Below are positions 59,562-64,000 of a stretch of DNA of 64,000 nt, one piece after another. The stretch spans positions 62,001 to 126,000 of the forward strand of contig NZ_JAUOEK010000120.1 of assembly GCF_030540835.1 (NCBI RefSeq). The letters run 5' to 3'. How positions within the stretch are numbered: the first letter of the stretch is position 1; each line of letters begins with the position of its first letter. Under the pieces are notes generated by a model. It had not been told where the DNA came from. It did not search any database and saw nothing but the letters and a program-made list of their open reading frames with translations. The DNA is from Flavivirga aquimarina (GTDB lineage: Bacteria > Bacteroidota > Bacteroidia > Flavobacteriales > Flavobacteriaceae). A program made the translations under genes and the position numbers.

Positions 59562-60692
59562 TTATAGTTTGGCGGTTAATCGCTTGGTAATAAAAATCAG
59601 ATAGCAGGTAGATGCAATAACAATGGTATACGTTAATCCTTCGTCACCAATAAAGTCCATGCTTGTTCCTATAACAAACAAACCTAAAAACCCACCCAGG
59701 GCATCCATGAGCACGAAAGACGTGTTTGCAGAAATTTGATCTTCTTTTCTAAATACCTGCCCTATATAAGCCAAGCCTGTTGCATAAATACCTCCCATAC
59801 TTCCACCCCAAATTACAAGTAAGGTAAGAGCGACACCCAAGTGCGCATAAACTGCAAGTGATAGGAATACAGCACAGACAACAGAGAAACATACACAGAT
59901 ATATATGATGAGTATCCGGTCTATAAAAGCCGATAAAGAGCTAATAAAAGCACCTATGCTTACACTGCCAATCATAAACATGGTTAGTAGCAATGCAGCT
60001 TCGTTAGGAGATAGATCATTGGCTATACCATACAGGGTAAGGAACGATGGTAATCCAAAAAAGCAAACACCACCTACTAATGCAGATAGCATGATAATTT
60101 TAGCATGTTTAAAAATGAAGCCTATTCGAACTGTTTTGTTGCTAGTAAGTGTTGGTCTATATTTAAAAACGGTAGCCAAAATGGCACAGGGGAACAACGT
60201 AATCATGGCATTGATCACAAATTGAGATGTTCTGGACGGTATAAACTGTAACAGTATAGGGCCTAAGGCAATACCCAAGGAAAGGGATGAAGAATACAAA
60301 CCTATAAAAAGACCTTTTAACTTTCCTGTTTCAGCAAGGTTCAACCAAGTTTGGACAACAACCAATACCATACTGGTCGACAGCCCGTAAGTAAAGATAC
60401 CCATAAACCAAAAAGCCAGATATTCGTTAAAGCCTAATATGTAAATAACCACGCCCCTTATTATTGATGCCCCGATTACGGTTTGTACGACCCCCAAACG
60501 TTTTACAACAACTGAAATATGTTTAAACAAAATAATGGTTGCCAGAATCTCACAGGACATGGCCAGGCCTATGAGTGTTTTACTATACCCCTGTACTTGT
60601 ATCGTAAGCGGAAAAATAATATAATTAATACCTGAACTTACCTGTATACACAGCGTTGCTATTATGATAAGAAAGGGAATTATTTTTTTCAT
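59562..60692 (-). CDS. MFS transporter
   Basis: A 376-residue, 12-helix major facilitator protein. The N-terminal half shows INYIIFPLTIQVQGYSKTLI and GLAMSCEILATIILFKHISV, and the second half GSMGGIYATGLAYIGQVFRK, a pattern close to the YcaD-like drug/metabolite exporters. The cargo is unknown. It starts 15 nt after the sensor gene and thus belongs to the gad/channel/sensor operon, suggesting transport of the signal molecule or its precursor (inference). Confidence 0.88.
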   Translation of the reverse strand: MKKIIPFLIIIATLCIQVSSGINYIIFPLTIQVQGYSKTLIGLAMSCEILATIILFKHISVVVKRLGVVQTVIGASIIRGVVIYILGFNEYLAFWFMGIFTYGLSTSMVLVVVQTWLNLAETGKLKGLFIGLYSSSLSLGIALGPILLQFIPSRTSQFVINAMITLFPCAILATVFKYRPTLTSNKTVRIGFIFKHAKIIMLSALVGGVCFFGLPSFLTLYGIANDLSPNEAALLLTMFMIGSVSIGAFISSLSAFIDRILIIYICVCFSVVCAVFLSLAVYAHLGVALTLLVIWGGSMGGIYATGLAYIGQVFRKEDQISANTSFVLMDALGGFLGLFVIGTSMDFIGDEGLTYTIVIASTCYLIFITKRLTAKL

Positions 60693-60707: not shown

Positions 60708-62102
60708 TTAAGTTTCCGGTTGTTTATTTAATTTTATCTGGACGTAAAACCCACAATGTTTCAGATTAGAAAAGCTGATTGCCTTACATTTGTATTTATG
60801 CAACAGGTTAATAGCTGTTGCTACTTCATACTCCTTATAATTAAAGGCCCTGTGACTAAAACTAGCGCCTGGATATAATTGTTTTAAAAATTCTTCTTCG
60901 AATTCTTGAGATCTTATCCCCGATAGTTTTAACTCTATGATGAAGTGATCGACCCCTTCCTCTAATTGCCTTATAATGATATCCAAGGCATTGCATTGTG
61001 TAGCGTTTTTAATAAAAAACAACAGTGTAGAAATAAGATCAACGGCTAGCAACAGAGGAATTCCTGACCCTCGAAGCGGTACATGCTTCTTTTTTTCAAC
61101 ATTTAACTTAACACCTTCTCTTTCTAAAGTGTTTTTAATACCATCTATAAGATCATTAATTTGAAAGTTTTCGAAAGAAACAGACCTTACTTCTATTTTA
61201 CTTTTTTGATATTGTATAACATGTGTAATCCATAAATCAAAATGTTTAAATAAGGTAATATTAGCAGGTTTAAGGGGCGCCAAATTGTTTTTGATCTTTT
61301 TTATAATCTGTATTTGCTCTTTAAAGGCATTTTCTAAAGACATCTGGAAAGTATGCTCAACCTCTTTGCTTTTCTCTTTAGCCAATAGGAGTGTTTGCAT
61401 GTACTTGCGCATATACCAAATTAACAGACCTATTATTAACCCTATAAAAATTATAATGATTACTGTTTTTTCAAAGGCAATTTCTATTGGTCGTAATCTT
61501 TCATAGAAGTTGTTTAATTCCAGATCCATACCCAATGTTCCTATAAATTGTCCGTTAGAATCGTAAAAAGGCGCATAACCACTAATAAAAACACCCCATT
61601 CATCTGTATAAACATCCGATACGATACTTCTTTGCTCCTTTAATGCTTTTAAAAGCGCAGGTGCAGGACCTTTATATTCGTCCATTAATGCAGGTGGCAA
61701 ATCTGGAAACCCATCATTATCGTTATCGTTTTGCGGGCTGGGGTTAAGTACAAAATATACTTTATCGTCAATAAGAATCGTAGTGTATATATAGCGTATA
61801 TCTTTAGCTACTTTTCTAATTTTCTCCAAAGGTGCAATCTGTGATATATACAGGGAATCCTCCCTTTTCGAGTCTTTATTAAATAGTGGATGCAGATCGC
61901 CATCTATGGTAGTTGCAGCAGCAGAAACATTAGATAATAAACCTATTTTTATTTCTTTCTCTAAAGATTCTACAGATTTAATATATAACAAATAGGTAGA
62001 AAAAAACACAAGTGCTATTACAATAAATGCGGTTATTATTGCTTCTATTCTTGGCGTTATAGAATTACCGTTTATATTTAATTTAATTTTTCTCATAAGC
62101 AT
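60708..62102 (-). CDS. Cache/PDC membrane sensor with degenerate kinase-like tail
   Basis: A 464-residue inner-membrane protein with helix 1 at about 20-42, an extracytoplasmic PDC/dCache-like domain (about 45-208: IRYIYTTILIDDKVYFVLNP, then GVFISGYAPFYDSNGQFIGT, then LGMDLE) and helix 2 at about 212-230. A cytoplasmic region (250-464) has the outline of a dimerisation helix plus HATPase fold (VDLISTLLFFIKNATQ, EYEVATAINLLHKY). It lacks a convincing phospho-acceptor His and the Gly-rich ATP lid. The PDC part includes a Ca-loop-like NDNDNDGFPD (126-135). Probably it binds a small ligand and signals by contact rather than phosphotransfer. No response regulator is nearby. Confidence 0.72.
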   Translation of the reverse strand: MLMRKIKLNINGNSITPRIEAIITAFIVIALVFFSTYLLYIKSVESLEKEIKIGLLSNVSAAATTIDGDLHPLFNKDSKREDSLYISQIAPLEKIRKVAKDIRYIYTTILIDDKVYFVLNPSPQNDNDNDGFPDLPPALMDEYKGPAPALLKALKEQRSIVSDVYTDEWGVFISGYAPFYDSNGQFIGTLGMDLELNNFYERLRPIEIAFEKTVIIIIFIGLIIGLLIWYMRKYMQTLLLAKEKSKEVEHTFQMSLENAFKEQIQIIKKIKNNLAPLKPANITLFKHFDLWITHVIQYQKSKIEVRSVSFENFQINDLIDGIKNTLEREGVKLNVEKKKHVPLRGSGIPLLLAVDLISTLLFFIKNATQCNALDIIIRQLEEGVDHFIIELKLSGIRSQEFEEEFLKQLYPGASFSHRAFNYKEYEVATAINLLHKYKCKAISFSNLKHCGFYVQIKLNKQPET

Positions 62103-62231: not shown

Positions 62232-63302
62232 CTATCCAAAAAATATAACCGCCTGAATTATATTGATTAACAGAAAACCGCAAGGAAAGAGGTATTTGCA
62301 GTATCCCATTAGCTTCTGGTTACTTATTTTTTTACTTTTAGCTGCTATGGAATGCCCCAGTATTATAATGAGTATACTTATGAAAATACTTAGGTATCCT
62401 ATAGTAATCAAGGACTCGATAAAAGTACTGTAGGGAAGATTGGGCAGAATATTGGATGTGTGAAAATTAAATGCCACAACAGTAAGCATAAGGGTAAAAT
62501 TAGTTGCTAACTGATCTGATAAATCCGGTATCCAAAAAACGGACCAGGAAATAGAAATAATAAGAAAAAGGGGAAATATGAATTGCCATAAATAATACCT
62601 GATTTTTCTTTTAGCATTAATTTCTATATTATATCTGGAAAATTCGACAGGTCTACCATCTGTGCTTAAATGTGAATATTCTTTTTTGCTTACATATTTC
62701 CGTTCGTTGTATATTAACCATTCTTCGGGCATCTCTTTATTTATAGAGATTATGGCATCGTTACTTCTCTCAAATACAAGGGATTTATCATCATAAGAAA
62801 AAGCCTCTAGCTGAATGGAAAAGCATTGTCTGTCGAATGGAAACTTTTTAAAATCCATAGACGTTGTAAAAACAGCATTAAATCGTTCGTTATAGGTTAC
62901 ATTTCCGTCCGGTCTGATAATAAGCTGTTTGTTGACCGTATTTCTTTTTCCAACCACATTAATAAACTCGAAAGCAGGAACCCATATTTCTTTGCCGATT
63001 TTTTCGTCTGCAACCTGGTTTTCGTAAATAATTTTGTTAGAGTTCTTTTTTTTGACAATGTTTCTTTCGTCGAACCAACTCGCAACAAAATAGCCATCAA
63101 TCGTATAGGTTTCATTTAGTGTATTAATACCATATATTTTATTAATTTGAATTTTAGGGGTAATCTTTACAGGTTGTATGCTATCCCCATAATGGGTTTC
63201 TCCATCTTGCTTTTTAGCTGACAAAACCACTCCGTTATAATTCTCATAAAAACAAAAAGAATTACTCAATAATAAGGTTAAATATATGCCTAGGTACATC
63301 AT
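62232..63302 (-). CDS. Pentameric ligand-gated ion channel (Cys-loop receptor homologue)
   Basis: A 356-residue channel subunit. An N-terminal signal (about 1-17) leads to the beta-sandwich ligand-binding domain (about 45-235) with family landmarks YFVASWFDERN (WxDxR, 76-80), IWVPAFEFIN, DGNVTYNERFNAVFTTSMDF and FPFDRQ (154-159). The first Cys of the eukaryotic Cys loop is missing, as in other bacterial members. Four membrane helices follow: M1 about 236-257, pore-lining M2 about 262-282 with ILPNLPYSTF after it (compare the LPKTPYMTY of GLIC), M3 about 292-316, M4 about 333-354. Homologues are gated by protons, amines or GABA. It starts 2 nt after the glutamate decarboxylase stop. Confidence 0.92.
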   Translation of the reverse strand: MMYLGIYLTLLLSNSFCFYENYNGVVLSAKKQDGETHYGDSIQPVKITPKIQINKIYGINTLNETYTIDGYFVASWFDERNIVKKKNSNKIIYENQVADEKIGKEIWVPAFEFINVVGKRNTVNKQLIIRPDGNVTYNERFNAVFTTSMDFKKFPFDRQCFSIQLEAFSYDDKSLVFERSNDAIISINKEMPEEWLIYNERKYVSKKEYSHLSTDGRPVEFSRYNIEINAKRKIRYYLWQFIFPLFLIISISWSVFWIPDLSDQLATNFTLMLTVVAFNFHTSNILPNLPYSTFIESLITIGYLSIFISILIIILGHSIAAKSKKISNQKLMGYCKYLFPCGFLLINIIQAVIFFG

Positions 63303-63304
63303 GA

Positions 63305-64000
63305 TTAACTAATTGGTTTACCGTCAATAACAAGGGTTGCATAGCACTCAAAAAGATCATTGACCAATTGAACAAGAAAAAACTCTTTCATATCGTTGCG
63401 TACCACAATTCGCATAACTGTAATATCCATTTTACCTGAAAGCTTGTAATATGGAAGCATCCATTTTTTCTCTCGCAACAATTGTGTAAACTTGTTTATA
63501 TCAACCTGTATCGGTTCTTTAAATTTGAATACAACAACAGGAATTTTACCATCAGAAAGTACTTCGAACACCCCATGCCTTGTTAATAATTGAGTCAAGA
63601 ATTTTGTATTTGCCATGCATTGCTCAATGATTTTCCTATAGCCTCCGAAACCGTAATGAAGAAAATTGAAATATTGTGCAAGGACTAATGAAAATGATCT
63701 TGAAAAGTTTACTGTAAATGAATCTGAAACGCCGCAAAGGTAACTGGACTTAATGTTTAATTCTGAATGGAAATAGCGTTTATCTCTAAACAACAACCAC
63801 CCTAGCCCAGGATAAACCAATCCGAATTTATGCCCGGATAAATTAATGGATCGCACAAGAGAACATTCAAAATCCCACATACCATAATCTGATGCATCCA
63901 AAAAAGGCACAACAAAACCACCTATAGCGGCATCTATGTGTATCCCTACATCCCAGTTATTATCCTTGTTAATTTTTTCCAGCCTTTCATTTAAAATATT
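63305..64000 (-). CDS. gadB: Glutamate decarboxylase, PLP-dependent (C-terminal part; cut by window end)
   Basis: The frame is open from the window edge to the TAA at 63307-63305, so the gene begins beyond 64000; an internal Met at 63910 is not the start. Visible: WDVGIHIDAAIGGFVVPF (PLP-binding Asp), WDFECSLVRSINLSGHKFGL with the PLP Lys in SGHK, VYPGLGWLLFRD, and the C-terminal domain. SINxSGHKxGLVYPGxGW is specific to the GadA/GadB group of group II decarboxylases, which turn glutamate into GABA using a proton. The C-terminal regulatory motif of E. coli GadB is not obvious. It is co-transcribed with the ion channel. Confidence 0.9.
   Translation of the reverse strand, partial: NILNERLEKINKDNNWDVGIHIDAAIGGFVVPFLDASDYGMWDFECSLVRSINLSGHKFGLVYPGLGWLLFRDKRYFHSELNIKSSYLCGVSDSFTVNFSRSFSLVLAQYFNFLHYGFGGYRKIIEQCMANTKFLTQLLTRHGVFEVLSDGKIPVVVFKFKEPIQVDINKFTQLLREKKWMLPYYKLSGKMDITVMRIVVRNDMKEFFLVQLVNDLFECYATLVIDGKPIS

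Follow-up and report, generated by a model that had tools for sequence, protein, structure and literature searches.

Why would a bacterium carry the gene for an amino acid decarboxylase directly ahead of the gene for a relative of the human GABA-receptor channels, of the type that small amines can open? The question is raised by one end of the window, i.e., the whole stretch of 64,000 nucleotides of Flavivirga aquimarina DNA analyzed here. A reading of the sequence alone had noticed a GadB-type glutamate decarboxylase (GAD) gene beside a gene for a pentameric ligand-gated ion channel (pLGIC) and proposed that the cell may make a signal or metabolite such as GABA and sense it. The open reading frames confirm the arrangement, with 2 nt between the stop codon of the GAD-like gene (D) and the ATG of the channel gene (C). 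The recurrence, side by side in distant bacteria, of an enzyme that probably makes an amine and a channel of the amine-gated type suggests sensing by the cell of what its own enzyme produces. That D and C are functionally coupled is regarded here as very probable. The fuller explanation, a horizontally spread cassette for both producing and sensing an amine, with the enzyme product as the channel ligand, is favored at somewhat better than an even chance.

Transcription on the minus strand runs from D through C and S to M (Table 1), with intergenic gaps of 2 nt (D–C), 129 nt (C–S), and 15 nt (S–M). The D–C pair noticed in the sequence-only reading is real, but that reading missed S and M, which are conserved operon genes as well. 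The full D gene was found in the contig (429 amino acids, L002:7305-8594, which is 63305-64594 in window numbering). A TorF-like porin gene lies 41 nt upstream of D (TIGR02001, 41.6 bits, slightly below the cut-off of 47.15), and relatives of this porin gene are also found upstream of D in two other loci (L034 and L035). Genes with the DUF2589 domain (PF11655) are located at L002:11764-15022 (window numbering 67764-71022).

Table 1. Genes of the decarboxylase–channel operon, in window numbering
Gene	Product	Position	Strand	Size
D	PLP-dependent decarboxylase, GAD subfamily	63305..64000	(-)	C-terminal 231 of 429 amino acids inside the window
C	ELIC-type pentameric ligand-gated ion channel subunit	62232..63302	(-)	356 amino acids
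S	Membrane protein, PDC/Cache-like domain between two long helices, NPSPQNDNDNDGFPDLPPALM motif	60708..62102	(-)	464 amino acids
M	Major facilitator superfamily transporter, MFS_1	59562..60692	(-)	376 amino acids

The pairing extends well beyond this strain, contrary to the refuting condition of a strain-specific pair that the sequence-only reading had set. A scan of 84,980 species used an alignment of four linked channels, a query that contains no decarboxylase and is biased to ELIC-like channels by drawing its patterns from those four only; it returned 24 loci, or 25 with the window. In 16 of the 25 ELIC-clade loci the channel gene is preceded by a decarboxylase gene of the same orientation, which in 15 is its immediate neighbor. 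The hosts are Flavobacteriaceae, Cohaesibacter, Vibrio, Dickeya, and a Pseudomonadales MAG, which span two phyla with the same gene order. Three of the four Vibrio loci are closely related, as are three of the four Flavobacterium loci, so the linked rows do not count as independent cases. The spacing between D and C is at most 25 nt, or the genes overlap, in 13 of 15 measured loci, the remaining two being 185 and 6237 nt. Tight spacing is therefore not universal, as a sister genome (G010, L030/L034) has a 6.2-kb insert between D and C. This insert (L030:10328-16575) carries three genes, named by eye as OmpA-like, PorP/SprF-like, and a 1112–amino acid repeat protein.

A control set was made of 22 of the 24 non-ELIC channel places with larger flanks (G423 and G241 were left out, and the flanks of L086, L087, and L088 are short on one side); tblastn with six queries found a decarboxylase in none of these 22 loci. 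Since the pairing recurs, it is more than chance, and recurrence together with the empty control loci rules out a chance neighborhood. Nine unlinked ELIC-like loci, in Kordia, Aquimarina, Maribellus, Algibacter, Polaribacter, and one Flavobacteriaceae MAG, show no decarboxylase nearby within flanks that are short on one side in L052 and L054. The channel of L054 is split over two reading frames and was left out of the trees but kept in the residue table. Proteins with the eCIS core domain (PF13699) are encoded directly upstream of the unlinked ELIC-like channels of Maribellus and Algibacter (L048:8242-9612 and L051:9133-9741).

GAD homologues are rare in the window's family. Of 12 genomes from the window's genus, 2 have the channel. 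Sampling of the family gave the channel in 2 of 100 genomes and GAD in 2 of 140; one and the same pair, the window's genome and G492, accounts for both. Genus g30 is taken to be Flavobacterium, since it includes a channel identical to the one in Flavobacterium sp. Leaf82 (L040); among its 249 sampled genomes, three have the channel and five have any GAD (E 1e-20). All three channel genomes are among the five, with GAD directly upstream of the channel, and the remaining two carry unlinked GADs with ordinary residues and open frames of 464–470 amino acids, longer than D. When 395 genomes sampled across the phylum were searched at E 1e-30, two gave a GAD: that of the window, and G384, whose enzyme is of the ordinary kind and which is absent from the list of channel carriers. 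Unlinked GADs thus do occur in the phylum, in one of 395 genomes besides the window's and in the two g30 genomes. Viral origin and plasmid location were also considered and set aside: there was no confirmed match in viral contigs and a single weak plasmid match, in Legionella adelaidensis, which covers 58% of the channel at 31% identity.

Judged by its sequence, C is an ELIC orthologue. It matches Pfam PF02931 (Neur_chan_LBD) with 70 bits against a cut-off of 26, its best PDB match is ELIC (E 3e-85), and it aligns almost end to end with the ELIC chain at 47% identity, including the four-helix pore region. From the ELIC binding site, as named in PMC3119659, C retains Glu77, Glu131, Phe133, Tyr174, Phe187, Asn103, and Tyr38, while Arg91 and Phe19 are both Gln. 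These retained residues help the reading of the locus as an amine-sensing pair. Glu77, Glu131, Phe133, and Tyr174 are found in all 16 linked channels. All 16 linked channels have Asn at position 103, where mutation of the ELIC Asn abolished activation (PMC3119659), and all 9 unlinked ELIC-like channels have Glu or Asp there. Position 132 in the amine loop separates the linked channels by their enzyme: it is Pro in all six channels linked to the second enzyme family described below and Ala, Ser, or Gly in all ten linked to a GAD-like enzyme. The rows of this residue table are related by descent and so are not independent.

The sequence-only reading had allowed for a cation or an anion channel. 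The residue ring at the start of the pore helix, a position that bears on ion selectivity, has Glu in ELIC and Asp in the window channel, Glu in the six Vibrio, Dickeya, and Pseudomonadales rows, and Asn or Thr in the Flavobacterium, Leptobacterium, and Cohaesibacter rows. Because of this difference, ion selectivity may vary among the linked channels; for the window channel, which keeps an acidic residue, cation is the better guess. ELIC itself is cation selective and is gated by primary amines, including GABA (PMC3119659), and the amino acids tested do not open it (PMC3430861). The EC50 for GABA is 1.6–2.4 mM (PMC3119659, PMC3430861), and PMC3119659 gives 0.365 mM for cysteamine, 0.446 mM for aminopropane, and 2.4 mM for GABA and leaves the natural ligand open. 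Amine gating and cation conduction would carry over to the window channel by analogy with ELIC.

What D makes is less straightforward. The enzyme matches Pfam PF00282, and the full-length protein scores narrowly above the cut-off of the NCBIfam glutamate decarboxylase model TIGR01788 (395.1 versus 380.4 bits), as do all four of the further linked GAD-type enzymes that were scanned. It shares with E. coli GadB and with plant and lactobacillus GADs (PDB 1pmm, 3hbx, and 5gp4) the PLP site and catalytic residues, keeping the equivalents of Lys276 (the PLP lysine), His275, Asp243, Thr212, and Asn83, as well as Arg422, a residue expected of GadB-type enzymes. Two further GadB residues, Asp86 and Gln163, are replaced by Asn and His. 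A modeling study of GadB has Asp86, Phe63, and Cys64 holding the γ-carboxylate of the substrate and Gln163 contacting PLP (PMC9814759). D differs from the known enzymes at each of these positions (D86N, F63Y, C64T, and Q163H) and also by S246I.

Q163H and S246I occur together in all ten linked GAD-like enzymes and in none of seven comparison GADs. D86N is found in five of the ten, exactly those GAD-type loci where S and M are present; the five Flavobacterium and Leptobacterium GAD-type loci retain Asp86. Animal GADs also have His at the PLP-stacking place, so it is mainly Asp86 that bears on the substrate. Since D has Asn where Asp86 of GadB holds the γ-carboxylate, GABA is a candidate and not a given, and D may not be the glutamate enzyme first assumed; glutamate is possible as its substrate, as Asn could still bind a carboxylate. 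That GABA is the product of the window enzyme is put at somewhat below an even chance. The GadB assignment of the sequence-only reading thus holds for the family model and the PLP residues and weakens at Asp86 and at two residues common to all seven comparison GADs, and D as a literal GadB has been demoted to a rival reading by D86N and the linked-enzyme signature.

A second family of PLP decarboxylases fills the same slot in six relatives, Dickeya included. While ten linked loci carry a GAD-like enzyme (L002, which is the window's, and L034, L035, L037, L057, L040, L041, L042, L044, and L045), the six others (L036, L038, L039, L043 from Dickeya undicola, L046, and L056) carry an enzyme that scores only 29 bits (L036) and 27 bits (L043) on TIGR01788 against the cut-off of 380. 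It stays below the cut-off of 305 on the NCBIfam histidine decarboxylase model as well (204 and 203 bits). Its best PDB match is L-methionine decarboxylase (7cif; 233 bits for L036 and 219 for L043), with serine and histidine decarboxylases ranking behind. In PDB 7cig an Ala replaces a Gln of 7cif, and this site is Gln in four of the six enzymes, those where the alignment reached it. The D. undicola channel is 95% identical to ELIC and its neighboring enzyme is not GAD-like; on its family-model scores and its PDB matches alike, the enzyme encoded next to ELIC in Dickeya does not resemble a glutamate decarboxylase. Methionine decarboxylase yields 3-methylthiopropylamine. Because cysteamine and aminopropane are more potent on ELIC than GABA, a short alkyl or thioether amine would fit ELIC better, and a thioether alkylamine is a testable alternative ligand.

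The channel tree suggests how two enzyme families came to share a slot. The scan behind it was seeded with linked channels only, and ELIC was left out with L043 as its stand-in. The 16 linked channels fall on one side of a branch from the unlinked ELIC-like channels with support of 100/100, and they form a clade at 88/84 when two remote outgroups are included. The six channels with the second enzyme are a single clade (100/98) nested within the GAD-linked channels, which points to a probable exchange of the enzyme next to a channel that remained in place. A constraint keeping the ten GAD-linked channels together was rejected (p-AU 0.018, in an AU test done once a first tree was already known and with a long-branch warning from the tree tool), which argues that the enzyme family changed within the linked group. 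The conserved partner of the channel would then be an amino acid decarboxylase and not one particular gene. GAD is read as the older partner on account of the Q163H and S246I signature shared by all linked GADs; in the enzyme tree, a single clade of these GADs appears in 43% of bootstraps.

S and M follow the channel in 11 of the 16 linked loci, with M after S in the same 11, and are not found near the other five (L040, L041, L042, L044, and L045). The PDC part is the conserved part of S; its Pfam match is below the cut-off of 27 for the window protein (22.4 bits) and above it for that of L037 (30.1). An AlphaFold2 model (mean pLDDT 82) shows a helix, a PDC-like domain, a helix, and a C-terminal part predicted to have a histidine kinase–like fold. 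Foldseek matches this model to WalK, GacS, and RetS (E 3e-11 to about 5e-7), with TM-scores that are low over the whole query (0.23–0.34) and 0.5–0.6 of the RetS kinase region. A pattern search found neither the H-box nor DxGxG in any of the 11 S proteins, and none matched a HisKA or HATPase Pfam family at E 0.05; an active histidine kinase was rejected because these catalytic motifs are absent. The PDC-like domain contains the motif NPSPQNDNDNDGFPDLPPALM at about 61683-61745 of the window (residues 120-140), with the full pattern in 8 of the 11 S proteins; it is DxDxDG-like and so possibly calcium binding.

S–M pairs also exist with neither channel nor decarboxylase nearby. In another Bacteroidota family, five loci (L109-L113, 16 kb around each) have a short PDC protein and an MFS gene that are about 31–36% identical to S and M; in two genomes of that family with an S relative (G132 and G242), a remote channel is encoded at another place. 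The idea that S and M are channel-specific parts is therefore unsupported. They may serve a separate task, and S–M looks like a module of its own that joined D–C. Other neighbors recur more locally. DUF2589 genes are found near 10 of the 16 linked loci (the window, L034-L036, L040-L042, and L044-L046) versus 0 of 36 other loci tested, and within the window's genus only in the 2 of 12 genomes that have the channel. Upstream of the decarboxylase in L040:6537-8608 and L045:6597-8658 lie two genes, one for an outer membrane efflux protein (PF02321, by a scan of L040) and one whose product has no known Pfam family; both families recur across four Flavobacterium loci and the Leptobacterium locus.

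The genes, their order and recurrence, the catalytic and amine-site residues, and the two enzyme families in one slot are read directly from the DNA, and they fit the following scheme for the amine cassette. Inside the cell D would decarboxylate an amino acid to a small primary amine or to another amino acid such as GABA, and in the window this product may be GABA or something close to it. It could reach the periplasm through M and/or the products of the neighboring outer membrane protein genes, whose transport role is putative. There it would occupy the conserved amine site of the ELIC-type channel, whose opening would provide a cation path through the inner membrane. The PDC-domain protein S may read the same or a related ligand. 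Several points count against this scheme, i.e., the expected cytoplasmic location of D versus an outward-facing channel site (export being putative), the millimolar GABA that ELIC needs, and the existence of nine ELIC-like channels with no decarboxylase nearby and of unlinked GADs. A bolder version is tentatively entertained, though it is less likely than not: an old and transferable bacterial "transmitter" cassette, its one operon uniting enzyme, ligand-gated channel, a second receptor, and a transporter, in which exchange of the enzyme changes the amine signal of the cell, with a methionine-type amine (3-methylthiopropylamine or similar), not GABA, as the Dickeya and Vibrio signal and the ELIC ligand.

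The closest competitor, shared by the sequence-only reading and the 2011 ELIC paper, takes D as an ordinary glutamate decarboxylase and GABA as the natural ligand of the channel. The TIGR01788 scores of D and four further linked enzymes, the retained PLP-site residues and Arg422, and the response of ELIC to GABA (PMC3119659) speak for it. The loss of Asp86 in the window and half of the linked GAD-like enzymes, the signature that sets all ten apart from the comparison GADs, and the D. undicola neighbor, which resembles L-methionine decarboxylase far more than GAD, make it doubtful. Gad systems serve acid resistance, and the pair might instead serve pH or membrane-potential homeostasis, in which decarboxylation consumes a cytoplasmic proton, a cation channel gated by the product provides a path for counter-ions or relief, and the amine is no signal. 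The cation selectivity of ELIC (PMC3119659) would suit this role, but the operon genes include no GadC-type antiporter, S with its PDC domain and kinase-like part points to sensing, and D86N may remove an acid-pH feature, all of which leave homeostasis unlikely. Least probable by a clear step is a passenger effect, where the genes share an island without working together. The patchy presence of the channel in the genus and the DUF2589 genes that accompany it would agree with an island. A mere passenger pair would hardly be expected to keep its order and mostly tight spacing with two enzyme families in one slot, to show a pocket residue (position 103) that tracks linkage, or to occur with and without S–M amid different neighbors. 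The amine cassette is preferred to all three, and linkage with exchangeable decarboxylases narrows the natural-ligand question for bacterial relatives of neurotransmitter receptors to a few candidates.

The claim that no described bacterial system couples the two activities fails, as Zimmermann & Dutzler 2011 (PMC3119659) had already described a "glutamate decarboxylase" in the ELIC operon and proposed GABA as a candidate ligand. No further paper on decarboxylase–channel linkage was among the open-licence matches listed, and the extent of the linkage was found nowhere in print among them; a term search of the available text of a 2016 evolutionary survey (PMC4795631) gave no neighbor, operon, or decarboxylase words. 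The pLGIC operons with PBP-II or Cache genes of Tasneem et al. 2004 (PMC549065) resemble the window in placing a channel beside a Cache-type sensor, and differ in that the word decarboxylase is absent from the main text of that paper. The nearest known system is the ELIC operon of Erwinia chrysanthemi/Dickeya (PMC3119659), where, as in the window, a decarboxylase gene immediately precedes that of the orthologous channel. S and M are not named in the available text of that paper, where other species are undiscussed, but may be drawn in its operon Figure 6A; in D. undicola they follow the channel, as they do here. The difference lies in the enzyme. L-methionine decarboxylase (7cif) is a relative of the Vibrio, Dickeya, and Pseudomonadales linked enzymes, the window carrying the GAD-like type, and a correction is offered for the ELIC-adjacent enzyme that PMC3119659 calls glutamate decarboxylase, which, by family models and PDB matches, appears closer to methionine decarboxylase.
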